Source: Kaistia adipata DSM 17808 (GTDB lineage Bacteria; Pseudomonadota; Alphaproteobacteria; Rhizobiales; Kaistiaceae). From it: a stretch of 64,000 nt of DNA. The stretch lies in contig NZ_KE383991.1 of the NCBI RefSeq assembly GCF_000423225.1, positions 816,217-880,216 of the forward strand, read 5' to 3'. Positions 7,235 to 44,389 of this stretch are shown in pieces (the stretch's first letter is position 1; every line of letters begins with the position of its first letter). The notes below the pieces were generated by a model. It was not told the DNA's origin and made no database searches. It was given only the letters and a program-made list of their open reading frames with translations. Both the position numbers and the translations under genes were made by a program.

Positions 7235-7580
7235 GCGCGTCGTCCGGCGTGGTTGTCATCCGGGAACGGTCGCAGCCAAACCATAAGAAACGATTGAGGC
7301 GCGGGGTTTCCGGAACGTTACCACGAGGGTAACAAACCGACCGTTCGGCGGCGGAATCATGGTGAACGCGCGTTGACGATTGCGGCAGCGGGCGCGCGGA
7401 ATAATGACGCTGCGATGGCGGATTTTCACAGGAGGATTTGGGAGATTATTCCACGGCTTACCGAAAAAACGGCGCGATTCCGCGCTCCATGCGACCGAAC
7501 CGGCAATTTCTCCCCTTGCCGCCGGCGCCGATCCCGTTAGTATTTGCGGTGGAAGTTGGGCGTGAAGAGAGACCCGGGAG
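7235..7580. other. 346-bp non-coding region with a 17-bp inverted repeat
   Basis: This region separates the DUF2336 gene (minus) from the small peptide gene (plus). GTTACC-ACGAG-GGTAAC at 7317-7333 is a perfect 6-bp inverted repeat about 85 bp upstream of the DUF2336 start. A TTGACG hexamer at about 7374 could serve as a -35 for the peptide gene. A minus-strand open frame crosses the region but has no recognisable protein features. Confidence 0.4.
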
Positions 7581-7670
7581 ATGTCCATGAGCCTCGCTAA
7601 ACCGTTCCATCTGCTGGCCGTCAGTGCCGCTTTTGTGTTCGTCGCGGCAATCGTATTCGGAGCGATCTGA
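7581..7670 (+). CDS. Small single-span membrane peptide (29 residues)
   Basis: The reading frame MSMSLAKPFHLLAVSAAFVF...GAI encodes a positively charged N-terminus and one hydrophobic helix from about residue 10 to the end. GGGAG ends directly before the first ATG; a second ATG at 7587 would be better spaced, so the true start may be two codons later. Tiny single-span peptides with a similar SLAKPFHLLAV start occur widely in Hyphomicrobiales, but I know of no function for them. It is probably an inner-membrane peptide. Confidence 0.6.
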   Translation: MSMSLAKPFHLLAVSAAFVFVAAIVFGAI

Positions 7671-7837
7671 TTCCTCCGCCGGCCTTTTAGGAGCACGCGT
7701 TCCCGACAGCGTATCTGGCAGACCCGACCGGATTTTTCCGGCGGGAGTAGTCTTCGCAGGCAGCTCCGGACGGACGAGCCAGGCGAGGCCTGGACTGCAA
7801 GATCAGGCTGCGGCCGGCCAAGGGCCGGGATCGCCTC

Positions 7838-8158
7838 TCACATACCCACGCCGGCGCGCCAGGCCGCCACCACCGCCATGCCAGCGAAAGCCGCCACAAT
7901 GTCGTTGCGCCGCCAGTAATAGACGGCGATCGTCGCCGCGAACCCCGCAAATTCGGCCAGCCCGCCATGCGCCACGATCGGCCCCAGGATCGCGCCCATG
8001 ATGGCGAGCGGCAGCGCCTTCAGCCAGGTCTCGACGCGCGGCGTCACCGCGACGAAGCGCATCAGGAAGAAGCCGGCGATCCGCGTCAGATAGGCCGCCA
8101 CCGTCATGACGGCGATGACGATCGCGAAGCCGGCCGTCGTGTTGGGATCAATACCCAT
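7838..8158 (-). CDS. azlD: AzlD family branched-chain amino acid export subunit
   Basis: This small hydrophobic protein of 106 residues has four predicted membrane segments and the AzlD signature YLTRIAGFFLM near residue 24. AzlD is the small partner of the AzlC permease, and the pair (BrnFE in corynebacteria) exports leucine, isoleucine, valine or analogues. The gene overlaps the end of azlC by 11 bp, which implies translational coupling. The assignment is sound for family; the exported substrate is inferred. Confidence 0.88.
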   Translation of the reverse strand: MGIDPNTTAGFAIVIAVMTVAAYLTRIAGFFLMRFVAVTPRVETWLKALPLAIMGAILGPIVAHGGLAEFAGFAATIAVYYWRRNDIVAAFAGMAVVAAWRAGVGM

Positions 8159-8870
8159 CGCGCGCGCCTCCGTCCGCGGAAGCCGTCGCGCGCGGCATGA
8201 AGGCGGCCGTCAGGCTGCCGGCGAGCCCGCCCGCGAGCACATGCATCGAGCCGCCGACATAGCGCTCGAACACGATCGCCACGCCGCCGCCGATGACCAG
8301 CGGCAGCACGTCCGCCCTGCCCTTCCAGAAGCCGCAGGCGAGCGATAGGAAGAAGGCCGGCAGGAAGAAATCGAGGCCGAAGCGGCGCGTGTCGCCCAGC
8401 ATCTGGCCGAAGCCGGCGCCGGCGATGGTGCCGGCGACCCAGCCGACCATGCAGCCGAGCCCCATGCCGACGAAGACACCGACGTCGCGCCGGCCCTGGT
8501 CGCGCTCCTGCATCGCCGTCGCCCAGTTGGCGTCGACGAGGACATACATGGACGCATAGGCGATCCAGGGCGGCAGACCGCGCATCCAGGGCTGCATCGC
8601 GGCGCCGAACAGCACGTAGCGGGCATTCATCGCCACAACGGCGACGAAGACGGCGAAGAGCAGATCGGGCGCGTTCCAGGCATGCAGCGCCAGCAGCTGC
8701 GCCGTGCCGGCATAGACGATGACGCTCATCGCGGTGGCGCCGAGGACCGAGATACCGACCTGCGCCGCCAGCACGCCGAACACCATGCCGAACGCGATCA
8801 TGCCGGGCAGAAGCGCCAGGCCTTCGAGAAAGCCCCGACGAAATCCGGCGGCGGTGAATGAAGCCGACAT
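8148..8870 (-). CDS. azlC: AzlC family branched-chain amino acid permease
   Basis: The 240-residue membrane protein has six to seven hydrophobic segments. Its start MSASFTAAGFRRGFLEGLAL and the following PGMIAFGMVFGVLA are typical of AzlC/YgaZ/BrnF permeases. With AzlD it should export branched-chain amino acids across the inner membrane. It is the first gene of the azlCD operon. About 130 bp of apparently non-coding sequence separates it from the metH gene that ends upstream. Confidence 0.88.
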   Translation of the reverse strand: MSASFTAAGFRRGFLEGLALLPGMIAFGMVFGVLAAQVGISVLGATAMSVIVYAGTAQLLALHAWNAPDLLFAVFVAVVAMNARYVLFGAAMQPWMRGLPPWIAYASMYVLVDANWATAMQERDQGRRDVGVFVGMGLGCMVGWVAGTIAGAGFGQMLGDTRRFGLDFFLPAFFLSLACGFWKGRADVLPLVIGGGVAIVFERYVGGSMHVLAGGLAGSLTAAFMPRATASADGGARDGY

Positions 8871-8963
8871 GTGGGGCTTTTCTGACGTAATCGGGGGACC
8901 TGTGAAACTTCGCTGTCCCTAGCGGATTCCGCTTCGGCCTGCCAGAGCCAATCGGCCGGAGCC

Positions 8964-8993
8964 GCCTCCTGCCACACAAGGGCGGCAGGAGGC
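8964..8993 (-). terminator. GC-rich hairpin after the methionine operon
   Basis: GCCTCCTGCC (8964-8973) and GGCAGGAGGC (8984-8993) form a perfect 10-bp stem with a 10-nt loop just beyond the stop of the last metH gene. No T-run follows on the minus strand, so it is either a weak intrinsic terminator or a 3'-end-protecting structure. Confidence 0.4.
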
Positions 8994-9001
8994 GCGCAAA
9001 A

Positions 9002-11673
<2,672 letters not shown>

Positions 11674-30490: not shown

Positions 30491-31489
<999 letters not shown>

Positions 31490-31598
31490 GGGCTTTATCC
31501 TTCGTGATCTTGGGGAGGCGTCTTCCCGGGCGAGGCGAAGCGGAACCCCGGGATGACGGCTGAGCGTTGGCCCAGGAGGATGGTGGCGGAACGAGCGG

Positions 31599-32651
31599 TC
31601 AAAGCTTCACCACCCTGCCCTCGCGCATGCTCGTCTCGGCGGCGAGCGCGATCTCGAGGGAGGTGATGGCGTCCTGCATGTGGCGCGTGAGGTCGACATC
31701 CTCGCGGATCGCCTTCAGCAGATAGGCCTGCTCGCGATCGCAGAGCGCCTGGTGGCCCGGCTCGTCCTCGGTCGAGAACCAGCTGTCGGCCTTGGCGAAG
31801 CTGCCATCGGCCTTGAGCGCGGCATGGTGGACGCGAATGCGCGCCGTCTTGGTGTGGGTGTCGACGTCGTCGGACTTCGCGGCCTCGTCCATGACGATCG
31901 AGACGGCGCCGTTCGGGCTCATCACGTCCTTCACGAAGAAGGCGGCCTCGGAGATCATCGGTCCCCAGCCGGCCTCGTACCAGCCGACCGAGCCGTCCTC
32001 GAAAATCACCTGCAGATGGCCGTAATTGACCTGGGTCGGCGCGATCTCGTCGGAAAGCCGCACGCCCATGCCGCGCACCTCGACCGGCCTGGCGTCGGTG
32101 ATCTGGCACATGACGTCGACATAGTGGACGCCGCAATCGACCAGCGGCGAGGTCGTCTGCATCAACTGCTTGTGGATGTTCCAGCTCGCGCCGGACGACT
32201 GCTGATTGAGGTTCATCCGCATGACGAAGGGCGGGCCCAGCTCGCGCGCCTTGGCGATGAACTCGATCCAGGACGGGTGGTGGCGCAGGATGTAGCCGAT
32301 GACGAGCTTCCTACTCGTGCGCTTCGCCGCCTCGACCACCGAGCGTGCGTCCGCGGCATTGGCGGCGAGCGGCTTCTCGACGAAGACATGCGCGCCCGCC
32401 TCCATCGCCGCGATGGCGAAGGGCGCGTGGCTGTCGGTGTAGGTGTTGATCGAGACGACGTCCGGCTTCAGCGCCAGCCCCGCCTCGAAGCTGTCGACGC
32501 GCGGATAGGCCTTCAGCTCGTCCGGCAGGTCGACCTCGGAGCGGTTGAACAGGCCGACGATCTCGAAGCCGGGATTGGCGTGATAGGCGAGCGCATGGCT
32601 GCGCCCCATCTGGCCAAGGCCGGCGACGAAGACACGGAGGGGACTAGTCAT
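31599..32651 (-). CDS. Gfo/Idh/MocA family NAD(P)-dependent oxidoreductase
   Basis: The 350-residue protein begins with a Rossmann motif [18 protein letters not shown]. It carries the family's EKP motif ([14 protein letters not shown], near residue 95) and a C-terminal alpha/beta catalytic domain with [13 protein letters not shown], where the His is the likely acid/base. Family members oxidise or reduce sugars, inositols and amino-sugar derivatives. It sits inside a sugar-import cluster linked to MurQ- and Nag-type genes, so an amino sugar or sugar acid substrate is plausible. About 50 bp separate it from the upstream permease gene. Confidence 0.88.
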
Positions 32652-32701
32652 GGATCAGCAACCTGCAATCGTAGATGACGGACCGGGCTTCGGCGCGAAA
32701 A

Positions 32702-33541
32702 TCACTTCACCGCGCCCGCGGTGATGCCGCGGATCAGCTGGCGCGAGAAGATCAGGTAGAGGACGAGCACCGGCATGATCGCCAGCGACAGGGTCGAGAG
32801 CACGGCGTTCCAGTTGGTGACGTACTGGCCGATGAACATCTGCGCGCCCAGCGTCACCGTCTTGGTCGCCTCGCCCGGCGCCAGGATCAGCGGGAACCAG
32901 AGGTCGTTCCAGATCGGGATCATGGTGAAGACCGCGACCGTCGCCATCGCCGGCCGGACGAGCGGCAGCACCAGGCGGAAGAAGATCGTGTATTCCGACA
33001 GCCCGTCGACGCGGCCGGCATTCTTCAGATCGTCCGAGACCTGCCGCATGAACTCCGACAGGATGAAGACCGCGAGCGGCAGCCCCTGCGCCGTATAGAC
33101 GAGGATCAGCGCCATCAGCGTGTTGACGAGGCCGGTCGCCACCATGCCCTGCAGGATCGCCACGGTGCCGAGGCGGATCGGGATCATGATGCCGAGCGCC
33201 AGGTAGAGCGCCATCATCGTGTTGCCGCGGAAGCGATATTCGGAGAGCGCGAAGGCCGCCATGGCGCCGAACAGCAGCACGAAGAAGATCGACGCGACGG
33301 TGACGATCAGGCTGTTCTGGAAATAGACGAGGAAATCGCCCTGCTTCAACACCGTCTCGTAGCCGATCAGGCTGAACGTCTTGGCGCTGGGAAGCTGGAG
33401 CGGCGTCGAGAAGATGCCGGCGCGTGTCTTGAACGAATTGACCAGCACCAGGAAGATCGGGAACAGCGCCAGCAGCGTATAGGCGCCGAGCGCCAGATGG
33501 ACGAGGCCGGTGCGGGCGACGGACGAGCGTGCTTTCGACAT
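32702..33541 (-). CDS. Carbohydrate ABC transporter permease (MalG/UgpE type)
   Basis: The 279-residue inner-membrane protein from MSKARSSVARTG has six hydrophobic segments. The EAA loop appears as KNAGRVDGLSEYTIFFRLVLP and contacts the ATPase. It pairs with the MalF-type permease encoded 8 bp upstream. In the open frame the upstream 113 residues are the shifted end of that permease gene and are rejected. Confidence 0.92.
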   Translation of the reverse strand: MSKARSSVARTGLVHLALGAYTLLALFPIFLVLVNSFKTRAGIFSTPLQLPSAKTFSLIGYETVLKQGDFLVYFQNSLIVTVASIFFVLLFGAMAAFALSEYRFRGNTMMALYLALGIMIPIRLGTVAILQGMVATGLVNTLMALILVYTAQGLPLAVFILSEFMRQVSDDLKNAGRVDGLSEYTIFFRLVLPLVRPAMATVAVFTMIPIWNDLWFPLILAPGEATKTVTLGAQMFIGQYVTNWNAVLSTLSLAIMPVLVLYLIFSRQLIRGITAGAVK

Positions 33542-33549
33542 GGCCTGCC

Positions 33550-34497
33550 TCAGAACTGGTAGCGGCGGATGCGCCGCTGGATGACGAAGAGATAGAGGCA
33601 GACGCCGGCGAGGATGATGAAGAACATCGCCGTCGCGATCGCCGCGCCCATATTGGGATCTCCGAGCTGCAGCTGGAAACCGAAGAAGGTGCGGTAGAGC
33701 AGCGTGCCCAGGATGTCGGTCGAGTAGTTGGGCCCGGCGATGGCGCCCTGCATGGTGTAGATCAGGTCGAAGGCGTTGAAATTGCCGACGAAAGTCAGGA
33801 TCGACACGATGCCGATCGTCGGCAGGATCAGCGGCAGCTTGATCTTGAAGAACTGGCTCCAGCCGGTGACGCCGTCGCATTCGGCCGCCTCGAGCACCTC
33901 GTCCGGAATGGAGAGCAGCGCGGCATAGATCAGCATCATCGGGATGCCGATGTTCTGCCAGACCGAGACCAGCGAAACCGTGATCAGCGCGCTGCCGGGC
34001 CGGCCGAGCCAGGGCGCGAAGAACGCCTTCATGCCGACGATGTCGAGCAGGAAGGGCGCGATGCCCCAGATCGGCGACAGGATCAGCTTCCAGACGAAGC
34101 CGACGATGACGAAGGACAGGATGGTCGGCAGGAAGATCGCCGTCCGGTAGAAGCTGCGGAACCGCAGCACCGGCAGCGACAGCAGCGCCGCGAGCGCGAT
34201 GCCGATCGGGTTCTGCACGACCATGTGGATCAGGAAGAAAACGAGGTTGTTGCGCAGCGCGTTCCAGAAGCTGGCCGCCCAGAGCGGGTCGCCGAACACG
34301 GTGCGGAAATTGTCGAGCCCGACGAACACCGACTGGCCGTCGACGATGCGGAACAGCGACAGCCGCAGCGTATCGAACAGCGGGATGATCATCACCGCCG
34401 TGTAGACCAGAACCGCCGGCAGCAGGAAGATGGCGATGTGCCAGCGGATGGGCCGCTTCGCGACGACGTCCCGTTCAGCAGTGTCGAGCGTGGTCAT
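33550..34497 (-). CDS. Carbohydrate ABC transporter permease (MalF/UgpA type)
   Basis: This 315-residue inner-membrane protein has an N-terminal membrane segment (IAIFLLPAVLVYTAVMIIP) and about five more, with the EAA loop EAAECDGVTGWSQFFKIKLPLI. It follows the binding-protein gene after 196 bp that contain a strong hairpin. It forms the translocation channel with the MalG-type partner. Confidence 0.92.
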   Translation of the reverse strand: MTTLDTAERDVVAKRPIRWHIAIFLLPAVLVYTAVMIIPLFDTLRLSLFRIVDGQSVFVGLDNFRTVFGDPLWAASFWNALRNNLVFFLIHMVVQNPIGIALAALLSLPVLRFRSFYRTAIFLPTILSFVIVGFVWKLILSPIWGIAPFLLDIVGMKAFFAPWLGRPGSALITVSLVSVWQNIGIPMMLIYAALLSIPDEVLEAAECDGVTGWSQFFKIKLPLILPTIGIVSILTFVGNFNAFDLIYTMQGAIAGPNYSTDILGTLLYRTFFGFQLQLGDPNMGAAIATAMFFIILAGVCLYLFVIQRRIRRYQF

Positions 34498-34693: not shown

Positions 34694-35962
34694 CTACTGC
34701 GCGGCCGGCTTGTACCAGCTGTCGAGGCCCTTCTGCAGGCGCTCGCCGGCCTGCTGCGGGGTTTCAGTGCCGTTGATCACGTTGGCCGAGGAGATCCAGG
34801 TTTCCGTGTCGAGGTTCGGCGTGCCGCGCGACAGGATCTGGTTGTTCGAGCGGATCGTCGACTTGCACTTGGCTCGCCAGCTCAGGAACTCCTGGGCGAC
34901 CGGATCCTGCAGGGTGATCGGCGCGGAAGACAGGCTGAAGAAGCCCGGCAGCGCGTTCGAGTAGAGATCCGCGAACTCCGGCGAGGCGACCCATTCGAGG
35001 AACTTCTTGGTCTCCTCGGGATGCTTCGACTTGGCGTTGGCGCCGAGGCCGATATCCGTGTGGTCGGAGATGAAGCACTCATCACCGGCCTTGCGGACCG
35101 GCGGCGGGAACGCGCCCATCTCGAAGGTCGCCTGCGCGCGGAACGGCGCGATTTCCCACGAGCCGGCCGGGTAGATGGCGGCGCGGCCGAGCGTGAACAG
35201 GTTCTGGCTGTCGGGGTAGGTCTGCGCCTCGAAGCCGTCACCCATATAAGGGCCCCACTTGGCGAGCGTCGCGAACGGCTCGACCCACTCCGGATCGGTC
35301 AGCTTCTGCTTGCCGGCGATCAGCGCCAGGCGGCCCTCTTCGCCCCTCCAGTAGGTTGGACCGATGTTCTGGTAGCCCATGGTCGAGGCTTCCCACTGGT
35401 CCTTCGTGCCCATGGCGAGCGGAACATAGGTGCCGTCGGCCTTGATCTTCTCGAGCGCCGCGAAGAACTCGTCCTCGGTCGTCGGGACGGCGATGCCGAG
35501 CTTCTCGAAGGCTTCCTTGTTGTAGATGAAGCCGTGGATCACCGAGGCCATCGGCACGCAGAAGGTCGTCTTGCCGTCGTCGGTCTGCCAGGCCGACTTG
35601 GCGACCGGGCTGAAGTTCTCCATGCCGGCGAGGCCGTCGACCGCGGTCAGCTGGCCCTTCTGGTACATGGCGAGCGAGAGGTCGAATGGACGGCAGGTGA
35701 TGAGGTCACCGGCCGAGCCCGCGTCGAGCTTGGCGTTGATCGCGGCGTTATACTCGGTCGGCGCCAGCGGCGAGAACACGACCTTGATGCCGGGATTCTT
35801 CGCTTCGAAGGCCGGGATCAGCTTCTCCTGCCAGATCGACAGGTCGTCGTTGCGCCAGCTCTCGATGGTGAGCGTCACGTCCTCGGCGAATGCCGGGGCA
35901 ATTCCAGACGAGAGTGCAGCGACGGCCGTCGCCAGCATCATCCGCTTCATGGTGGTGTTCAT
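34694..35962 (-). CDS. Extracellular sugar-binding protein of ABC importer
   Basis: The 422-residue protein has a clear Sec signal peptide (MLATAVAALSSGIAPAFA, cleaved near residue 26). The mature chain follows the family-1 solute-binding fold: LTIESWRNDDLSIW, FEAKNPGIKVVFSPL, FCVPMASVIHGFIYN, and YPAGSWEIAPF. GGAG lies 7 bases before the ATG. It is periplasmic and delivers a mono- or oligosaccharide to the two permeases that follow. With MurQ-like and Nag-type genes adjacent, an amino sugar or muramyl sugar is the likely ligand. Confidence 0.93.
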   Translation of the reverse strand: MNTTMKRMMLATAVAALSSGIAPAFAEDVTLTIESWRNDDLSIWQEKLIPAFEAKNPGIKVVFSPLAPTEYNAAINAKLDAGSAGDLITCRPFDLSLAMYQKGQLTAVDGLAGMENFSPVAKSAWQTDDGKTTFCVPMASVIHGFIYNKEAFEKLGIAVPTTEDEFFAALEKIKADGTYVPLAMGTKDQWEASTMGYQNIGPTYWRGEEGRLALIAGKQKLTDPEWVEPFATLAKWGPYMGDGFEAQTYPDSQNLFTLGRAAIYPAGSWEIAPFRAQATFEMGAFPPPVRKAGDECFISDHTDIGLGANAKSKHPEETKKFLEWVASPEFADLYSNALPGFFSLSSAPITLQDPVAQEFLSWRAKCKSTIRSNNQILSRGTPNLDTETWISSANVINGTETPQQAGERLQKGLDSWYKPAAQ

Positions 35963-36013: not shown

Positions 36014-36934
36014 TTATCGAACGCCGGCCCCGGCGATCGCCGCCAGCGCCTTGCGCACGTTCCCATTGTTCTGGTTGAGCATTTCGCCCGCCGCGGCCAG
36101 GTCCTTCGCCCCGGCTGCGATCAGGATCGCGGGCTTCACGTGACCGCCCGCCGTTTCGAGCGCCGTCCGGGCGCTGGCCTCGTCGACGCCGGCGACATTG
36201 GCGATGATGCGGGCGGCCCGCGCGCGCAGCTTGCCGTTATCGGCCCGGACGTTGACCATCAGCCCGTCATAGACGTGGCCGAGATGGATCGCCGTCATCG
36301 TCGAGAGCATGTTGAGCGCGGCCTTCTGCGCGGTGCCGGCGCCCATCCGCGTCGATCCGGCGATGACTTCCGGCCCGGAATCGAGATGAACGGTCACGTC
36401 GGCGCCCTCGAAGAGCGGCGCGTTGGCGTTGCTGGCGATGGCGACGCTGGCGGCGCCGGCGGCGATCGCTGCCTGCAACCCAGCCACCGTAAAGGGCGTC
36501 GAGCCGCTCGCCGAGATCGCGACGACGCAATCCTGCGGTCCAACGCCGTAGGCCGCGACGTCGAGGCGCGCCTGCACGGGATCATCTTCCTGCAGGCCCG
36601 AGAAATTGTGGATCAGGTCGAGCCCGCCGGCCAGGATGGTGACGATGCGATCATCGGGAACGCCATAGGTCTGCGGGATCTCGAGCGCGTCGCTGAGCGC
36701 GAGCAGCGCCGGGCTGCCCGAGGCGAGATAGACGAGGCGGCCACCCGCCGCGAGCTTGTCAGCCGCGAGCCGAGCCGCCTTCGCCAGCGCGGGGATCGCC
36801 GCCTCGACCGAGGCGACGGCGCGCGCATGGCCGGCCTGCAGCGCGGAGAGGACATCCTCGTCGCGCCAGGTATCGAGCCCGCGATAGCGCGGATCGGCGA
36901 TTTCGGTCGACGGCGAAGACTTGGTCACGGTCAT
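36014..36934 (-). CDS. MurQ-like SIS-domain protein (N-acetylmuramic acid 6-phosphate etherase family, divergent)
   Basis: The 306-residue SIS-domain protein aligns along its length with MurQ. Conserved are the catalytic-Glu region DALEIPQTYGV (Glu83 equivalent kept), GPEVIAGSTRMGAGTAQKAALNMLST and the UBA-like helical end with NNGNVRKAL. Two sugar-phosphate contacts differ: the GTSGR loop of E. coli MurQ reads GSPAL here, and the region of Glu114 reads SGLQEDD instead of EGAED. MurQ cleaves the lactyl ether of MurNAc-6P to GlcNAc-6P and D-lactate. This protein may do so with altered contacts, or may act on another sugar phosphate. It starts in an ATGA overlap with the ceramidase-like gene. 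Confidence 0.75.
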   Translation of the reverse strand: MTVTKSSPSTEIADPRYRGLDTWRDEDVLSALQAGHARAVASVEAAIPALAKAARLAADKLAAGGRLVYLASGSPALLALSDALEIPQTYGVPDDRIVTILAGGLDLIHNFSGLQEDDPVQARLDVAAYGVGPQDCVVAISASGSTPFTVAGLQAAIAAGAASVAIASNANAPLFEGADVTVHLDSGPEVIAGSTRMGAGTAQKAALNMLSTMTAIHLGHVYDGLMVNVRADNGKLRARAARIIANVAGVDEASARTALETAGGHVKPAILIAAGAKDLAAAGEMLNQNNGNVRKALAAIAGAGVR

Positions 36935-38283
36935 GCTCTCTTCTCGATGTCTGCGGCCTCGCCGGCGAGCGTCGCGGCAAGGGTTGCGGCCGTTTGCACG
37001 AGCCGTTCGGCCGAGCCGGGCGCGAAGGCCCCGGGCATGCCGTAGTAGCGATGCGCCTCGTCGACCTCGTAGCCGCCGAAGCGGTATTCCTCGGCCGGCG
37101 GGATATAGCCCGGCACGCCGTCGGCGAAGCAGAAGACGAAGGAGCGGCCGCCGACGGGCATGCCGTCGATGGCCTGGCGGATCTGCCGCGCCGTCGCGGC
37201 GAAGATCTCGCCCGGCAGCGCCACGAGGCGAACCCCGCCCCAGTCGAACACCGTGACGCGAAGCGGACATGGCGCGAGCGGTTCGCGCGCGGCGGTGTCG
37301 GCCCAATCGGCCCAGCTTTCATAGAGCGCCGCCCAGGCCGGCGCGGCGGTCTGGCTGTCCACGCGCCATTGCGCGCCAAGCGCGTCGAGCTGGTCCTGCT
37401 CCGGCCGCACCAGATCCAGTGCGATCGGCGCCGACGCGGCCCGGAAATCGCCGGAAATGGACGCCTGCGGAGCGGCGAGCGCGGCCGCGGCGATGCGCTG
37501 GCCGAGGCGCTCGGCATTGGCGAAGCTGCGAAAATCGGAAGGGGCCGTGCTGATCGAGCCATGCGGCGTGTCGCCGATGCCGGCGTCGCCGGCACAGCCG
37601 GTCAGGAACAGGGCGACCGCGCCGGGGTGAACCGCCTCGATCGCCGAACGGACGGCGCCGGGATAGTCGGCCGTCCAGAGCGTGTTGTCCGCGCCGAGCA
37701 CGACCGGGTGGCAGGCATAGGACAGCACCACGGCGATCCAGCCGCCCTCCTCGCCGCGAATACGCAGTACCGGCAATTGCGGATCGGTGACGCCGCCTTC
37801 GTGACGACGGTTCCGCGCCACTTCCGGATCGGCGCCGTTGCCGAACGTGATCCGCGCGGGCCGCCGATTGGCGAGCGCGGCCTCGATCGCCGCGACGCAG
37901 GCGTCTTCGAGACGGGCCAGATAGCCGGCGTCCGGCGCACCGCCGACGCGGCCCGGCACGGCGCGCGGACCGCCATGCGTATGCAGCGCGGTGATGACGA
38001 CATGATCGTCGGCGAGCGGAACCCGGGCGCGGATCCGCCGGCAGGTATCCTCATGCAAGCCGATGACGTCGACGGAGACCAGGACCGTATCGCCGACGAC
38101 GACGGCGCGGACGGTCAGGGGATCATGCGTACCGGTCGCAGGCGAAAGACGCGCAGCGTAACCCGCCATCGCCAGGCCGGACGGCGGCGTGATGTCGACA
38201 ATGGCAGCCCCGGCGAGGACGACAGCGCCCGCACCCACTCCGCCCGGCTCTCCCGCCCTTGCGTCAATGCTGGTTTCCGGCAT
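36931..38283 (-). CDS. Neutral/alkaline ceramidase-like amidohydrolase (cytoplasmic)
   Basis: The 450-residue protein from MPETSIDARAGEPG (GGAAGAG upstream) resembles the N-terminal catalytic domain of neutral ceramidases. It starts with AAIVDITPPSGLAMAGYAAR, followed by the zinc-ligand-like VVITALHTHGGPRAVPG, LSYACHPVVLGADN and FLTGCAGDAG, and ends around LVALPGEIFAATARQI, FCFADGVPGYIP and EYRFGGYE. There is no signal peptide and no C-terminal Ig-like domain, unlike secreted ceramidases. It is cotranscribed with the MurQ-like gene (4-bp overlap) and divergent from the amino-sugar kinase gene, so hydrolysis of an N-acyl amino sugar is an attractive inference. It has not been tested. Confidence 0.75.
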   Translation of the reverse strand: MPETSIDARAGEPGGVGAGAVVLAGAAIVDITPPSGLAMAGYAARLSPATGTHDPLTVRAVVVGDTVLVSVDVIGLHEDTCRRIRARVPLADDHVVITALHTHGGPRAVPGRVGGAPDAGYLARLEDACVAAIEAALANRRPARITFGNGADPEVARNRRHEGGVTDPQLPVLRIRGEEGGWIAVVLSYACHPVVLGADNTLWTADYPGAVRSAIEAVHPGAVALFLTGCAGDAGIGDTPHGSISTAPSDFRSFANAERLGQRIAAAALAAPQASISGDFRAASAPIALDLVRPEQDQLDALGAQWRVDSQTAAPAWAALYESWADWADTAAREPLAPCPLRVTVFDWGGVRLVALPGEIFAATARQIRQAIDGMPVGGRSFVFCFADGVPGYIPPAEEYRFGGYEVDEAHRYYGMPGAFAPGSAERLVQTAATLAATLAGEAADIEKRA

Positions 38284-38317
38284 CGAGCAACTCTTCCCTG
38301 CTTGATTGGGAAGGACG

Positions 38318-38334
38318 ATACCAACGAAATACCA
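38318..38334 (-). promoter_or_regulatory. Operator-like element 1 (TGGTAT direct repeat), ceramidase side
   Basis: Read on the minus strand the site is TGGTAT-TTCGT-TGGTAT, two identical hexamers repeating at 11 bp, one helical turn. It lies 34 bp upstream of the ceramidase-like gene start. A near copy in the same orientation relative to its gene is found before the kinase gene. The GntR-family regulator at 39,497 is the likely ligand. Confidence 0.55.
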
Positions 38335-38495
38335 GTCCGTCCAGACACCTAAATCAGAGGATCGAAAATATACCGGCCGCCTTGGGGACAAGACCCCATA
38401 ACTGTTTTAGATCAGCACCTTAATGAAGCAGATCTCACAAAAGACTACGAGCCAAGACCGAACAGGCCGCGCTCGCCGCATATTTCCTTCCCAAT

Positions 38496-38512
38496 TGGAT
38501 TTCGTTTGGTAT
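38496..38512 (+). promoter_or_regulatory. Operator-like element 2 (TGGTAT direct repeat), kinase side
   Basis: TGGATT-TCGTT-TGGTAT on the plus strand shares the core ATTTCGTT and the terminal TGGTAT with element 1. It has the same 17-bp length and 11-bp periodicity. It lies 70 bp upstream of the kinase start codon. The region between the two elements (about 160 bp) is AT-rich and should hold both promoters. Confidence 0.55.
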
Positions 38513-38582
38513 TATCCCCTCACAGATTGCCGGCGGCACCCGATCCGGCCATCCAGCAATACGGCAGACGGTGAAGGACGAC

Positions 38583-39500
38583 ATGACGGGCAGCTCTGAT
38601 GGTCTTCGGACGCATGCGCGGGACATCATCCTGGTCGGGATCGACGGTGGCGGCACACGCTGCCGGGCCCGCGCCCGCTACGCGGATGGTAGCCCGATCG
38701 GCGAATGCATCACGGGCACCGCCAACATCCTCGCCGGCATCCCCGAGGCGCGCGACAACATCGTCGCCGCCGTCGAGGGCGCACTGGTCGCCGGCGGCCT
38801 GACGACGGCCGATCTCGGCCGCTGCCATATCGGCCTCGGCCTTGCCGGCGCCAACATCCCGGATCTCGCCGAGCGCTTCCTCGCCTCCGGCCTCCCCTTC
38901 GCCAGGATCGCGCTGGAGATGGATGCCTGGATCGCCTGCCGCGGCGCCCATCCCGAAGGCAATGGCGCGATCGCGATCCTCGGCACCGGCACCGCCTATG
39001 TCGTGCAGGCGGGCGGCGGCTTCACGACCGTCGGCGGCTGGGGCTTCCTGCTCGGCGACCAGGGCAGCGGCGCGTGGCTCGGGCATCAGGCGATGCGGCG
39101 CTCCGTGCTGGCCCATGACGGCATCCTGCCCGCCACGACCTTCTCGCGCGCGATAATGGCGCGCTTCGACGACAAGCCGGACCAGATGGTCACCTTCTGC
39201 AAGACGGCGCTGCCGCGCGACTACGGCGAACTGGCGCCGCTCGTCTTCGACGCGGCCGCCGCCGGCGACCCGCTCGCCGAAGCCATCCTGGCCGAGGCGA
39301 CCGCCGACATCGAGGCGGCGCTCGGCCGCCTCGTCGAACTCGGCGCCGAACGGATCAGCCTGCTCGGCGGCCTGGCGCCGCTCTATCAGGCGCGCCTGGC
39401 GCCCGCCATCGCCGCCCGCATCGTGACGCCGGCCGGCGATCCGCTCGAGGGCGCGCTGGCGCTGGCCGCCACGCTCGCCCCGGCCGAGTTCGCGCGATGA
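38583..39500 (+). CDS. BadF/BadG/BcrA/BcrD-type N-acetyl-hexosamine kinase
   Basis: The 305-residue ASKHA-fold kinase has the phosphate-1 motif VGIDGGGTRCRARA near residue 20, AILGTGTAYVV (phosphate-2) and LLGDQGSGAWLG, typical of eukaryote-like GlcNAc kinases and of MurNAc/GlcNAc kinases such as MurK. ATG 38583 is preferred over GTG 38571 because AAGGA precedes it. It should phosphorylate imported amino sugar at C6, feeding the MurQ-like and NagA steps. It overlaps the GntR gene by 4 bp (ATGA). Confidence 0.88.
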   Translation: MTGSSDGLRTHARDIILVGIDGGGTRCRARARYADGSPIGECITGTANILAGIPEARDNIVAAVEGALVAGGLTTADLGRCHIGLGLAGANIPDLAERFLASGLPFARIALEMDAWIACRGAHPEGNGAIAILGTGTAYVVQAGGGFTTVGGWGFLLGDQGSGAWLGHQAMRRSVLAHDGILPATTFSRAIMARFDDKPDQMVTFCKTALPRDYGELAPLVFDAAAAGDPLAEAILAEATADIEAALGRLVELGAERISLLGGLAPLYQARLAPAIAARIVTPAGDPLEGALALAATLAPAEFAR

Positions 39501-40261
39501 CCGAGCTTTTCCTGACGCCGGAGCGGCTGACGGACGAGGAAGGCGGACCGCTCTATGTCCGCCTCCAGGGCCTGATCCGCGACGCCATCGGCGACGGCCG
39601 GCTGCGCCCGAATGACGCCCTCCCCGCCGAGCGCGAAATGGCGGCTTCCCTCGGCGTCTCGCGCGTCACCGTTCGCAAGGCGATCCAGGGCCTCGTCGCC
39701 GAAGGCGTGCTGCGCCAGCGCCATGGCTCCGGCACGTTCGTGTCGCGCGGCGGCGGACGCGTCGAGCAGCCGCTGTCCCGGCTGACCTCCTTCACCGAGG
39801 ACATGCGCAGTCGCGGCCTGGTGCCGACGGCGAACTGGATCGAACGTTCGGTTGGCATGCCGACCTCGGCCGAGGCGATGATCCTCGGGCTTTCGCCGAC
39901 CGATCGCGTTTCCCGCCTGCATCGCCTGCGGCTCGCCAACAACGAGCCGATGGCAATCGAGCGCGCGGTCGTGCCGGCCCGCATCCTGCCCGATCCGTCG
40001 ATCGTCGACGTTTCGCTCTACGACGCGCTGACCGCGATCGGCATGCGACCGGTGCGCGCCGTGCAACGGCTGAATGCCGAGAATGTCAGCAGCGCCGACG
40101 CCGCCCTGCTCGGCATCGCGCCCGGCTCCGCCGCGCTCGCCATCGAGCGCATCTCCTATTTGCCGGATGGCCGCGTCGTCGAGTTCACGCGCTCGCACTA
40201 TCGCGGCGATGCCTATGATTTCGTTGCTGAATTGAACCTGACGGAAGCGTCTCCCCGCTAG
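39497..40261 (+). CDS. GntR/HutC-family transcriptional regulator (NagR/NagQ-like)
   Basis: This 254-residue protein has a GntR winged helix (LYVRLQGLIRDAIGDGRLRP, then LPAEREMAASLGVSRVTVRK and RQRHGSGTFV) and a C-terminal UTRA ligand domain (LTSFTEDMRSRGLVPTANWI, and FTRSHYRGDAYDFVAEL at the end). UTRA members often sense sugar phosphates such as GlcNAc-6P. Its place inside the amino-sugar operon and the two TGGTAT elements nearby make it the probable repressor of both divergent arms. The TAG stop is the first part of a dispersed repeat. Confidence 0.9.
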   Translation: MTELFLTPERLTDEEGGPLYVRLQGLIRDAIGDGRLRPNDALPAEREMAASLGVSRVTVRKAIQGLVAEGVLRQRHGSGTFVSRGGGRVEQPLSRLTSFTEDMRSRGLVPTANWIERSVGMPTSAEAMILGLSPTDRVSRLHRLRLANNEPMAIERAVVPARILPDPSIVDVSLYDALTAIGMRPVRAVQRLNAENVSSADAALLGIAPGSAALAIERISYLPDGRVVEFTRSHYRGDAYDFVAELNLTEASPR

Positions 40262-40385: not shown

Positions 40386-41411
40386 ATGACCACCACGTTG
40401 ATGCGCGCCGAGATCGACGAAGCGCCGGCCGCCGTCCGTCGCCTGCTCGACCAGTCGCGCGACGCCATCACCGAGGCTGGCGCACGGCTGCGCGCCGTCG
40501 ATCCGAATGTGATCGTGACGGTCGCGCGCGGCTCGTCCGACCATGCCAGCGCCTTCTTCAAATATGCCTGCGAGATCACGACCGGCGTCCCTGTCGCCTC
40601 GCTCGGCCCTTCGATCGCCTCCATCTTCGGCGCGCCGCTGCATCTTCGCGGCGCCGCCGCGCTCGCTATCTCGCAGTCGGGCAAGAGCCCCGACCTGCTC
40701 GCCATGATCGAGGCCGCCAAGAAGGGCGGTGCCGCCACCCTGGCGCTCGTCAATGTCGAGGATGCGCCGCTCGCCGGTCTCGCCGACGTCTTCGTGCCGC
40801 TGCGCGCGGGCCCGGAGAAGAGCGTCGCCTCGACCAAGTCCTACATCACCTCCGTCGTCGCCGGCCTCGCCATCATCGCCGCGTGGCGGGAGGACAAGGC
40901 GCTTCAGGCGGCGATCGCCGCCCTGCCGGACAAGCTCGACGCTGCGCTCGAATGCGACTGGAGCGAGGCACGCGACACCGTCGTCGGCGCCGCCTCGCTC
41001 TACACGCTCGGCCGAGGCCCCGGCTTCGCCATCGCCCAGGAAGCGGCGCTGAAGCTCAAGGAAACCTCGATCCTGCACGCCGAAGCCTATTCGGGCGCGG
41101 AGCTGCAGCACGGCCCGGTCTCGCTGGTCGACGAGCACTTCCCGCTGCTCGCCTTCATCCCCAACGACGCGGCGGCGCCGAGCATGGTCGCGACCGTCTC
41201 GGCGCTGCATGCGCGCGGCGCCAAAGTCTTCACCGCGACGGCGGCGGACATTCCCGGCCCCCGCCTGCCCGTCGCCCCGACGGGCCACGCCCTGACGGAT
41301 CCGATCTCGATCGCGCTCTCCTTCTACCGCTTCGCCGAAGCGGTCGCGGTCGCGCGCGGCTACAATCCCGACAAGCCGCGCGGCCTCAACAAGGTGACGC
41401 AGACCGTCTAG
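40386..41411 (+). CDS. nagB-II: SIS-domain glucosamine-6-phosphate deaminase (NagB-II type)
   Basis: The 341-residue protein has two SIS domains and no glutaminase domain: VARGSSDHASAFFKYACE and SQSGKSPDLLAMIEAAKKGG in the first, LGRGPGFAIAQEAALKLKE and SGAELQHGPVSLVDE in the second. It is the GlmS-like isomerase half that functions as an alternative GlcN-6P deaminase (NagB-II, AgaS-related) and releases ammonia and fructose-6P. Its setting before nagA and nagK fits this well. The alternative, GlmS-type synthesis, is excluded by the missing N-terminal amidotransferase. Confidence 0.88.
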   Translation: MTTTLMRAEIDEAPAAVRRLLDQSRDAITEAGARLRAVDPNVIVTVARGSSDHASAFFKYACEITTGVPVASLGPSIASIFGAPLHLRGAAALAISQSGKSPDLLAMIEAAKKGGAATLALVNVEDAPLAGLADVFVPLRAGPEKSVASTKSYITSVVAGLAIIAAWREDKALQAAIAALPDKLDAALECDWSEARDTVVGAASLYTLGRGPGFAIAQEAALKLKETSILHAEAYSGAELQHGPVSLVDEHFPLLAFIPNDAAAPSMVATVSALHARGAKVFTATAADIPGPRLPVAPTGHALTDPISIALSFYRFAEAVAVARGYNPDKPRGLNKVTQTV

Positions 41412-41527: not shown

Positions 41528-42691
41528 ATGTCGAAGCTGACAGCCTATCTGGTCGCCGACCTGTTCGACGGCGCCACGCGCCGCCGCGATGTCGCCGTTC
41601 TGGTCGATGGCGACACCATTCGCGGCGTGGTCGAGCCCGGCGGCCTGCCCGAGGGCGTCGCGACCATCGAGCTAGCGACCGGGCTGCTCGCACCGGGCTT
41701 CATCGACCTCCAGGTGAACGGCGGCGGTGGCGCGCTGCTGAACAGCGCCGCCACGCTCGACGGCATCCGTGCCATCTGCACGGCGCATGCCCGCTATGGC
41801 ACGACGGCTCTGCTGCCGACGCTGATCACCGACACGCCGGAGGTCACGACGGCGGCGATCACGGCCGTCCGTGACGCCATCGCGGCCGGCGTCCCCGGCT
41901 GCCTCGGCATCCATATCGAGGGTCCGCACCTGTCGGTCGCCCGCAAGGGCGCGCACAATCCCGGCTACATCCGGCCGATGGACGAAGCCGACTTCCAGCG
42001 CCTTGTCTCGACCGGCATCGACCACGTGATCACGACCGTCGCCGCCGAGACGGTGCCGCCGGAGCAGATCGCGCGTCTCACCGCCGCCGGCGTCACGGTT
42101 GCGATCGGCCACTCCGATGCGCCCTACGAGATGGCGATGGCGGCGTTCAACGCCGGCGCGCGCGGCGTCACCCATCTCTTCAACGCGATGAGCCAGCTCG
42201 GCCATCGCAGCCCCGGTGTCGTCGGCGCAGCGCTCGACAGCCCCGACGCCTGGTGCGGCATCATCCCAGACGGCCTGCACGTCCACCCCGCCGCGATCGC
42301 CAACGCGCTGCGCGCCAAGCGCGCGCCGGGGCGCATCTACATCGTGACCGATGCCATGTCGACGATCGGCACGACGATGACAGAGTTCGAGCTGAACGGC
42401 CGCGTCATCCAGCGCGCCGGCGGCAAGCTCACCCTCGACGACGGAACGCTGGCCGGCTCCGACCTCGACATGATCGGCGCAGTCCGCTTCATGACAGGGA
42501 CGGTCGGCATCGGGCTCGAGGAAACGCTGCGCATGGCCTCGCTGTATCCGGCGCAATTCCTGGGCATCGACCGCACGCATGGCCGCATCGCGCCGGGCGC
42601 CCGCGCCGACTTCGTGCATCTTTCCGACGCGCTCGACGTCGAAGGCGTCTATATCGGCGGCGAGCGCCAGCATTTCGCGCCGCTCGGCTGA
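41528..42691 (+). CDS. nagA: N-acetylglucosamine-6-phosphate deacetylase
   Basis: The 387-residue amidohydrolase has GFIDLQVNGGGG, the metal-ligand Glu in GIHIEGPHLSVARKGAHNP, histidines in AIGHSDAPYE and GVTHLFNAMSQL, and the catalytic Asp in VTDAMSTIG. It removes acetate from GlcNAc-6P to give GlcN-6P. It comes 116 bp after the deaminase gene; the 41,412-41,527 interval has no obvious feature. nagK follows after 14 bp. Confidence 0.95.
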   Translation: MSKLTAYLVADLFDGATRRRDVAVLVDGDTIRGVVEPGGLPEGVATIELATGLLAPGFIDLQVNGGGGALLNSAATLDGIRAICTAHARYGTTALLPTLITDTPEVTTAAITAVRDAIAAGVPGCLGIHIEGPHLSVARKGAHNPGYIRPMDEADFQRLVSTGIDHVITTVAAETVPPEQIARLTAAGVTVAIGHSDAPYEMAMAAFNAGARGVTHLFNAMSQLGHRSPGVVGAALDSPDAWCGIIPDGLHVHPAAIANALRAKRAPGRIYIVTDAMSTIGTTMTEFELNGRVIQRAGGKLTLDDGTLAGSDLDMIGAVRFMTGTVGIGLEETLRMASLYPAQFLGIDRTHGRIAPGARADFVHLSDALDVEGVYIGGERQHFAPLG

Positions 42692-42705
42692 ACGGACAAA
42701 CGACC

Positions 42706-43617
42706 ATGGCGACGCCCGGAACGGCGGCCTTCGACATCGGCGGCTCGAAGATGGAGTTCGCCCGCGTGGCGCGCGACGGCACGGTGACCAACCGCGCCAC
42801 CCTGCCGACGCCGCACACGAACTGGGATGACTTCATCACGGCGCTCGGCCGCCTGGTCGAGACCGATGGCGGCGCGACGCGCATCGGCATCTCGATCGCC
42901 GGCACCACCGACCGCGCCACCGGCATAGCCCTAGCCGCCAACGTCCCGGTCGTCACCGGCCACCGCATCGAGAGTGAAATCGCCGAAGCACTCGGCATCC
43001 CCGTCCGGGTCGGCAACGACGCGGACTGCTTCGCCTTGGCCGAGGCGATGGTTGGAGCCGGCAAGGGCCAGCCGATCGTCTTCGGCGCCATTCTCGGCAC
43101 CGGCGTCGGCGGCGGGCTGGTGATCGATGGCCGCATGGTGCGCGGCGCCAACGGCGTGACCGGCGAATGGGGCCACGGCCCCCTCCTCGCCGAAGCCGTC
43201 GCGGCGCGCGGCATCCCTGTGGTGCGCTGCGGATGCGGCCAGGTCGGTTGCCTCGACAGCTACGGTTCGGCGCGCGGGCTGGAACGCATCCATACGGCCC
43301 TCTCCAGCGAGGCGCGGACGAGCCAGGCGATCACCGCCGCCTGGCATGCCGGCGACGAGACGGCAACGCGCAGCATCGAGACCTTCGTCGAGCTGATCGC
43401 CGGGCCGCTCTCGATGATCGTCAACACGATCGGTCCCTCGGTCATCCCGGTCGGCGGCGGACTGTCCGCCGATGCGGCGCTCCTGGCGCAAATCGACCGA
43501 GCCGTGCGCGGCCGCGTGCTCGGCCGCTACGAGGCGCCGCTGGTCGTGCCGGGCCTGACGCGCGGCGCGAGTGGCCTGATCGGCGCAGCCATGCTGGCGG
43601 AACAGGCGCCGGCGTGA
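42706..43617 (+). CDS. nagK: ROK-family N-acetylglucosamine kinase
   Basis: The 303-residue ROK protein has the ATP motif AFDIGGSKMEFAR, catalytic NDADCFALAEA, ILGTGVGGGLVIDG and the zinc/ROK signature GEWGHGPLL followed by CGCGQVGCLDSYGSARGL, where His and three Cys bind zinc. Its length equals that of E. coli NagK, and it phosphorylates free GlcNAc. The cluster therefore holds two unrelated hexosamine kinases, this one and the BadF type, which may serve different sugars or import routes. Confidence 0.9.
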   Translation: MATPGTAAFDIGGSKMEFARVARDGTVTNRATLPTPHTNWDDFITALGRLVETDGGATRIGISIAGTTDRATGIALAANVPVVTGHRIESEIAEALGIPVRVGNDADCFALAEAMVGAGKGQPIVFGAILGTGVGGGLVIDGRMVRGANGVTGEWGHGPLLAEAVAARGIPVVRCGCGQVGCLDSYGSARGLERIHTALSSEARTSQAITAAWHAGDETATRSIETFVELIAGPLSMIVNTIGPSVIPVGGGLSADAALLAQIDRAVRGRVLGRYEAPLVVPGLTRGASGLIGAAMLAEQAPA

Positions 43618-43630
43618 TCATACTGCGCCC

Positions 43631-44389
43631 ATGAACCAGCGCACGCCCGGCCGAATCAAGCTTGAGATCTGCGTCGACACCGCCGACGGGCTGGAGGCGG
43701 CGATCCGCGGCGGCGCCGACCGCATCGAGCTCTGCAGCGCCCTCTCCCTCGGCGGGCTGACGCCGACCTTTGGTCTGATGAAGCTCGCAGCGAAGACGGG
43801 CGTGCCGATCTACGCCATGATCCGGCCGCGCGAGGGCGACTTCGTCTTCACGCCGGGCGAGCTCGACCAGATGCGCCGCGACATCGACGCCGCCCGGTCC
43901 GCCGGCCTCGCCGGGGTCGTGCTCGGCGCTTCCGAGCCGCGCGGCAGGCTCGACGCGGAGGCGCTCTTCCGCCTGCGCGGCCATGCCGGCCCCTTGGGCG
44001 CCGCGCTGCACCGCGCCTTCGACCTCGTGCCCGACCGCGCCGACGCGCTGGAGACGGCGATCGCGCTCGGCTTCGAGCGCATCCTGACCTCCGGCGGCGC
44101 CAAGCACGCCGTCGACGGGCTGGACGCGCTCGCCGCCCTGGTGACGCGCGCCGGCGACCGCATCGCCGTGATGCCCGGTTCCGGCATCCGTCCCGACAAC
44201 GCCCCCGCGATCCTCGCTGCCACCGGCGCGCAGGAGATCCACGCGTCCTGCCGCAGCGGCCGGCAGACCGTGGCGCCGGAGGCCGTGGCGCTCGGCTTCG
44301 CGTCGGATTCGCTGCGCGACGTCACCTCCGCCGAGACCGTCGCGGAGCTCGTCCGCGCGATCCGCGTCTTCGAGGACCCAACCGCCTGA
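43631..44389 (+). CDS. cutC: CutC family protein
   Basis: This 252-residue TIM-barrel protein has the CutC signatures LEICVDTADGLEAAIRGGAD, RIELCSALSLGGLTP, IYAMIRPREGDFVF and LTSGGAKHAVDGLDAL. CutC was named for copper homeostasis in E. coli, but that role is now doubtful. In many genomes it neighbours amino-sugar genes as here, so a role in sugar-phosphate metabolism is possible. It lies 13 bp after nagK with no clear RBS, within the operon. Confidence 0.92.
   Translation: MNQRTPGRIKLEICVDTADGLEAAIRGGADRIELCSALSLGGLTPTFGLMKLAAKTGVPIYAMIRPREGDFVFTPGELDQMRRDIDAARSAGLAGVVLGASEPRGRLDAEALFRLRGHAGPLGAALHRAFDLVPDRADALETAIALGFERILTSGGAKHAVDGLDALAALVTRAGDRIAVMPGSGIRPDNAPAILAATGAQEIHASCRSGRQTVAPEAVALGFASDSLRDVTSAETVAELVRAIRVFEDPTA

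Follow-up and report, generated by a model that had tools for sequence, protein, structure and literature searches.

The window analysed here, by which we mean the whole stretch of 64,000 nucleotides from Kaistia adipata DSM 17808 (contig NZ_KE383991.1, positions 816,217 to 880,216), contains a gene for a ceramidase-like protein, Cer, in the midst of genes for amino-sugar salvage. A preliminary description of this DNA had pointed to four genes, a MurQ-like gene and Cer on the minus strand and a BadF and a GntR gene on the plus strand, and the four open reading frames are indeed found where it had placed them, as is the overlap of 4 bp between Cer and the MurQ-like gene (36931-36934); the sugar importer that it noted nearby is also present. 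The locus extends past this four-gene core, with GntR followed by genes for NagB-II-like, NagA, ROK and CutC proteins and an ATP-binding cassette (ABC) ATPase, and with MurQ followed by genes for a sugar-binding protein, two permeases, a Gfo/Idh protein and an ABC ATPase. Comparisons of the locus suggest a job for the Cer family in the breakdown of amino sugars, unexpected for relatives of ceramidases. The features are:

36931..38283, minus strand: Cer, predicted zinc amidohydrolase of neutral-ceramidase fold, 450 aa (PF04734, profile search, model, Foldseek)
36014..36934, minus strand: MurQ-like N-acetylmuramic acid 6-phosphate (MurNAc-6P) etherase, SIS domain, variant first motif (NCBIfam and PDB MurQ matches)
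38284..38570, no strand: divergent promoter region with operator-like repeats ATACCAA (38318), ATACCA (38329) and inverted TTGGTAT (38506)
38571..39500, plus strand: BadF-family N-acetylhexosamine kinase, NagK-like (Pfam BcrAD_BadFG, PF01869, 107.5 bits; NF046058 219 bits, below the cut-off of 370)
39497..40261, plus strand: GntR/UTRA regulator, probably the local one (Pfam GntR and UTRA)
40386..41411, plus strand: NagB-II-like SIS glucosamine-6-phosphate deaminase (NF046059 315 bits, below the cut-off of 430)
41528..42691, plus strand: NagA N-acetylglucosamine (GlcNAc) 6-phosphate deacetylase (TIGR00221 306.5 bits, cut-off 225.65)
42691..43617, plus strand: ROK kinase, GlcNAc kinase-like, start assumed (best NCBIfam model below its cut-off)
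43631-44389: CutC-family protein within the NagB-II/NagA/ROK row, its position kept in the Kaistia loci read
34694..35962, minus strand: sugar-binding protein of the ABC importer, downstream of MurQ (SBP_bac_1; weak NgcE-type match below cut-off)
30491..34497, minus strand: two permeases, Gfo/Idh oxidoreductase and ABC ATPase, after the binding protein (Pfam)

Cer matches the Pfam family Ceramidase_alk (PF04734) with 50.2 bits against a cut-off of 32.1, the match being confined to the N-terminal half, and it is the sole PF04734 match in the genome of the window; its closest named relative, from Kaistia granuli, is 90% identical. The only proteins matched in a profile search were the neutral ceramidases of Pseudomonas (2zws) and human (4wgk). 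An AlphaFold model, made from an alignment of 13 rows (mean pLDDT 80, pTM 0.84), found four Foldseek matches at E <= 0.001, every one a neutral ceramidase (E from 5e-20, for 2zws, to 1.4e-18; TM 0.68-0.70 by query length). Residues H194, H196, R257, Y579 and Y591 of the human neutral ceramidase (nCDase) align to H101, H103, R159, Y393 and Y405 of Cer, and H97, H204, E411 and Y448 of the Pseudomonas enzyme to H101, H192, E359 and Y393, in a numbering counted by hand on the alignment; some of these are presumably zinc ligands, and none of the seven Cer residues varies in any of 19 rows. In a review, H196, R257, Y579 and Y591 are named as critical, and Ser354, in the motif GDVSP, is described as a helper supporting R257 (PMC6952831). 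The corresponding loop of the Cer model (231-241) is poorly predicted.

Compared with the neutral ceramidases (PF04734; 2zws, 4wgk), Cer thus shares the fold of the catalytic domain, the putative zinc ligands and the equivalents of Arg257 and of two tyrosines, but it has only 450 aa, carries Asn (in most rows) or Gly (in Kaistia) for the helper serine, and is encoded in an amino-sugar operon. Two features that the preliminary description had denied to the protein are indeed missing: there is no C-terminal Ig-like domain, Cer ending after the catalytic domain while the Foldseek targets have 630-672 residues, and no signal peptide is visible, as judged by eye only, with no predictor run. With the catalytic residues aligned but the helper serine and the Ig-like domain gone, the amide-hydrolase core appears to be kept and the ceramidase hallmark lost, and we infer that Cer is a zinc-dependent amide hydrolase, predicted to be cytoplasmic. 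Between the window and K. granuli the gene is under purifying selection, with a dN/dS of 0.108 (0.106 for MurQ).

The neighbour of Cer in Kaistia was fairly called a divergent MurQ, since it scores above the cut-off of the NCBIfam subfamily model for MurNAc-6P etherases, PRK05441 (NF003915; 310 bits versus 168), but below that of the equivalog TIGR00274 (215.6 bits versus 302). It is the only protein in the genome of the window above the PRK05441 cut-off, and the positions aligned with two Glu of E. coli MurQ, which we take to be catalytic, are both Glu in the Kaistia rows (by eye). As in the known salvage loci, murRQP of E. coli and MurTQK of Tannerella, MurQ is accompanied in Kaistia by a sugar kinase, NagA, a NagB-II-like protein, an importer and a regulator, with AnmK encoded elsewhere in the genome, a likely source of MurNAc-6P via cell-wall recycling; unlike in those loci, Cer lies directly upstream of murQ, the importer is of the ABC type and the MurQ motif is a variant one. 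Kinases for MurNAc or muramyl dipeptide, of the MurK/GlcNAc-kinase sort, presumably include BadF-type proteins, and the human GlcNAc kinase is said to phosphorylate muramyl dipeptide. Tannerella MurK phosphorylates MurNAc (PMC10465942).

The presence of Cer is variable within the genus. It is encoded in 2 of 14 Kaistia genomes, while four others (G012, G002, G010 and G009) possess the MurQ/BadF/GntR/NagB-II/NagA/ROK/CutC set with no Cer; the importer-side gene order (binding protein, permeases, Gfo/Idh, ABC ATPase) is the same in G003, G011, G012, G002 and G010, and importer genes were not found beside MurQ in G009. The spacer between MurQ and BadF measures 1637 bp with Cer and 248-282 bp in the four genomes that lack it. 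In a further genome, G011, a spacer of 604 bp between a variant MurQ and BadF retains stretches resembling both ends of Cer, one example being 136 bp at 82% that comprise the murQ start and the Cer 3' end, apparently a deletion relic of Cer (L078 10561-11290). The variant MurQ is accompanied by Cer or by the relic in each of the three genomes that have it, the ordinary Kaistia MurQ by either in none of four, and the three variant MurQs form one clade (support 100/100). They are 57-61% identical to those of the four Cer-less Kaistia, versus 72-93% for the remaining genes of the locus, so that MurQ and Cer may, in this small sample, have arrived or changed together. Both ATACCAA and TTGGTAT are found in 7 of 7 Kaistia spacers examined, Cer present or not, and, as Cer lies directly downstream of one repeat, its control by GntR is plausible; Cer would appear to be co-regulated with the locus.

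A more general pathway of Cer, MurQ and BadF was considered and rejected. MurQ is encoded in 21 of 101 relatives, and, besides the window, G003 and G011, loci were read in 10 of the 18 others, none with Cer, and with 20-282 bp between MurQ and BadF (or GntR, in L083 and L088). The link between the ceramidase-like protein, MurQ and BadF that had been proposed is thus real in two Kaistia but not general, four Kaistia MurQ loci being free of Cer and a fifth holding the remnant. A copy of the operon described below was also sought elsewhere in the Kaistia genome and rejected, as the sole SIS2 gene above cut-off is 32% identical to the operon type, reads SHSGTN and not NAYGIN, and belongs to another locus, and as the NagA-like protein of the operon has its best match, at 32%, in the NagA of the locus itself. 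On contig 5 of the same genome (L102, about 7391-9856) ROK and GntR genes and one for a SIS2-family SHSGTN protein lie near two ABC importer gene sets.

Outside Kaistia, comparison of neighbourhoods by tblastn synteny reveals a conserved home operon of Cer, composed of genes for LacI, NagB-like, NagS-like SIS and NagA-like proteins and Cer itself, for an importer (ABC type or sodium symporter) and for an epimerase of the AGE type; a fructuronate-reductase-like gene and UxuA are present in some versions and absent from others. Among loci on genome contigs, the NagA-like gene is immediately upstream of Cer in 12 of 16, often with a 4-bp overlap; of the other four, L013 and L023 are truncated where their contigs end, L008 is the MurQ locus of K. 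granuli, and L010, from Pelagicoccus, reads SIS-Cer-AGE-symporter. In the close plasmid orthologues (48-57% identity) the NagA-like gene directly precedes Cer in 7 of 7, and all seven loci encode LacI, NagB-like, SIS and NagA-like proteins, Cer, a binding protein and two permeases, along with an AGE-type gene (7/7, on the opposite strand in L028) and UgpC (6/7). The name AGE in the ABC-type operons comes from the annotation of one record and from similarity, two copies tested having no Pfam match; in L009, L010 and L017 it is given by Pfam (PF07221). No sugar kinase is annotated within the seven plasmid operons, whose gene tables are incomplete, so its absence is not proven; in L025 a ROK gene is part of an adjoining divergent cluster. 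The ABC importer is replaced by a sodium:solute symporter in Inquilinus, Pelagicoccus and Actinobacteria.

At E <= 1e-60 the Cer subfamily is present in 8 of the 397 genomes that represent the order, in one of 398 for the phylum, namely that of the window, and in 7 of 296 for an actinobacterial class, five of the latter representing a more distant sister clade (G862, G943, G960, G969, G986), a patchy distribution of the kind expected of a mobile operon. The amino-sugar setting proposed for Cer is thus found in distant bacteria, with NagA-like, NagB-like and SIS-type neighbours; the conservation of the neighbourhood anticipated in the preliminary description applies to amino-sugar genes, not to MurQ and BadF. 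That description is, overall, partly supported, right in direction and wrong in scope, the MurQ/BadF combination being a local arrangement. In the sister clade (L112-L116) a 550-645-aa protein, a NagS-like SIS protein and Cer are encoded in a row, and upstream, in L113, to which the Pfam search was confined, lie genes for an oligopeptide-type ABC importer and a DegT-type aminotransferase. Genes for more distant PF04734-like proteins neighbour those for Gfo/Idh proteins and heparinases in Haladaptatus, or those for prolyl oligopeptidases on plasmids of Agrobacterium and Klebsiella (L032, L031, L033), and a distant Cer-like gene (26%; L103 5076-9897, G066) lies <=2 kb from a NagA homologue and not far from a NagB-like one, on the opposite strand.

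The common partner of Cer is a SIS-domain enzyme, MurQ in Kaistia and a NagS-like protein elsewhere. The NagS-like gene is in the operon in 24 of the 25 non-Kaistia loci readable upstream (L013, L020 and L023 being cut, and L017 the exception), and in the actinobacterial sister clade the SIS and Cer genes overlap in 5 of 5 loci, with no NagA-like or NagB-like match beside them. The substrate of MurQ is MurNAc-6P. That of NagS (SCO4393), a GlcNAc-6P dehydratase, is likewise N-acetylated, and its description restricts true NagS to Streptomycetaceae and reports three distant homologues as inactive (PMC12680351). Among solved structures, NagS is the one that two operon SIS proteins put to the test match best, and the equivalents of its His, Arg, Glu, Asp and Asn (H53, R64, E94, D179, N228) are kept, their motifs occurring in 23 of 23 home-operon rows (counted by script, the mapping to NagS numbering being by eye). 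The home-operon proteins differ from NagS in that Ser91 is replaced by Met and the phosphate-contacting Ser119 and Ser121 by NAYGIN, the latter in 29 of 29 rows (23 from the home operon, 5 from the sister clade, and L117). As the NagS mutants S119A and S121A stayed active (PMC12680351), NAYGIN should not be over-read.

Further hints of a route not involving phosphate come from the NagB-like proteins. These retain the residues aligned with Asp72, His143 and Lys208 of the E. coli enzyme, but Asp141 is replaced by Asn, Glu148 by Asp and Arg172 by Gln, and the loop T-G-G-T-P is missing; each of these points holds in 22 of 22 aligned rows (two from one genome; L021, an over-long open reading frame, and L076, a divergent copy reading ATGASQ, were dropped). 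The features lost presumably include contacts to the phosphate. Of 22 neighbourhoods that can be read downstream, 9 have a mannitol-dehydrogenase-family gene and 7 have UxuA, a count made by eye that leaves out Kaistia and the cut loci L013-L016, L020, L072 and L074; the five loci of the sister clade have neither. Of four reductases tested, three have fructuronate reductase as their best NCBIfam model, and all four score below cut-offs. A homologue of the nickel epimerases is encoded further on in Streptomyces sp. ODS25 and comes nearest to the model of a putative hexonate epimerase (165 bits versus a cut-off of 500); for this group hexonate activity was hypothesised only, and two related groups epimerise D-mannonate (PMC7583248). 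In L118 (6237-7502) a lactate-racemase-family protein nearest the same model is encoded downstream of Cer and a mannitol-dehydrogenase-family gene. Taken together, the residue losses in the NagB-like and SIS proteins and the reductase, UxuA and epimerase genes suggest that deamination in the home operon yields fructuronate from an amino-sugar acid, and the reductase and UxuA genes make a plain GlcNAc/MurNAc reading of this operon the less probable one. Some home operons share fructuronate-reductase-like and UxuA genes with glucuronate catabolism (UxuB/UxuA), from which they differ in joining these to NagA-like and NagB-like enzymes; no uronate isomerase is among their identified genes, though no search for one was made.

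From these gene contexts and alignments, we consider it somewhat probable that Cer takes part in amino-sugar catabolism as a zinc-dependent amidase of the cytoplasm, with the catalytic domain of the neutral ceramidases as its scaffold, and acts beside a SIS-domain eliminase of a C3 substituent. The SIS-domain partner would remove the C3 substituent of an N-acetyl amino sugar, and Cer would cut an amide on that substituent. In a Kaistia sublineage the gene would have moved from the home operon, the direction that we infer, into a MurNAc/GlcNAc salvage locus beside the GntR gene and upstream of MurQ, which would take the SIS slot; the target there would be the amide that joins the lactyl group to the peptide, in a muramyl peptide or in the 6-phosphate of one, after which MurQ would eliminate lactate, and NagA and NagB-II would finish. 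An N-acyl amino sugar or muramyl derivative is a possible substrate; the C3-substituent or lactyl-peptide amide as the exact bond is a guess, and a tentative one. As for the home operon, it is conceivable, though doubtful, that it represents an undescribed pathway, needing no kinase, for the breakdown of N-acetylated amino-sugar acids (hexosaminuronates, perhaps amidated or with a substituent at C3), in which a C6 carboxylate replaces the 6-phosphate, the AGE, Cer, NagS-like SIS, NagA-like and NagB-like proteins, acting in turn as epimerase, amidase, eliminase, deacetylase and deaminase, lead to fructuronate, and the reductase and UxuA to 2-keto-3-deoxygluconate, Cer having been recruited to muramyl-peptide salvage in Kaistia. 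No such route of hexosaminuronate catabolism was found by title in the open-licence PubMed Central literature.

Several observations weigh against these proposals. The helper serine of GDVSP is lost from Cer, the motif reading GD-x-N in most rows and GD-A-G in Kaistia, as placed by eye. The NagA-like proteins keep Arg227 and His251 (25 of 25 rows), along with the aligned metal and catalytic residues, so that loss of phosphate is not favoured. The neighbour of Cer in most home operons is the NagA-like and not the SIS gene, and L017 has NagA-like and NagB-like genes and no SIS. At the position of NagS Ser91, where the mutation S91A lowers activity 40-fold (PMC12680351), the operon SIS proteins have Met, as judged by eye, and so they need not share the chemistry of NagS. 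The salvage genes are retained in Kaistia species with no Cer, which must be dispensable for the use of MurNAc or GlcNAc; and muramyl peptides, plausible for Kaistia, leave the fructuronate-type genes of some home operons unexplained.

As to alternative functions, Cer might be an N-deacylase for 2-N-acyl (or 3-N-acyl) groups beyond the reach of NagA, for example those of N-glycolyl amino sugars, of amino sugars with longer acyl chains or of diacetamido-uronic acids. The retained amide-hydrolase residues, the cleavage of N-acyl amides by neutral ceramidase itself and the second deacetylase of the home operon, as if two different amides need cutting, all agree with this; we nevertheless find it rather unlikely, since NagS and MurQ act on N-acetylated substrates and prior removal of the 2-N-acyl group would block the SIS step, and nothing in the sequence tells which acyl group it would be. 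A zinc hydrolase for another bond in the same pathway, an ester, a lactone or the carboxamide of a sugar acid, is less likely again: specificity may have changed with the loss of the helper serine, whose loop is poorly predicted, and the wider PF04734 relatives occur in varied contexts, but all four critical human residues have an invariant equivalent in Cer. It is improbable, too, that Cer merely hitch-hiked into the Kaistia locus with no functional tie to MurQ, as its rarity in the genus, with a relic in one genome, could be taken to mean; the gene lies between the divergent promoter region and murQ, overlapping the latter, the dN/dS values of the two genes are equal, and the home operon of Cer is likewise of the amino-sugar type. 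The Pfam name and the fold would fit a true ceramidase in an accidental position, an explanation to which we give hardly any credence, given the missing Ig-like domain, visible signal peptide and helper serine and the amino-sugar context in unrelated bacteria.

In conclusion, proteins annotated as neutral ceramidases are read as lipid enzymes, and the Cer subfamily has an operon of its own in several bacterial groups and a proposed, testable role in sugar metabolism. No account of a ceramidase with amino-sugar operons or gene clusters was found in the open-licence PubMed Central literature, which does not show its absence from print. The pairing of one enzyme with two SIS-domain proteins, NagS-like and MurQ, provides a natural handle on its substrate. 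Should Cer prove to be an amidase that acts on sugars, we know of no earlier one with the fold of the neutral ceramidases, and a sugar role for the subfamily would correct the annotation and possibly indicate an uncharted route for bacterial amino-sugar acids.

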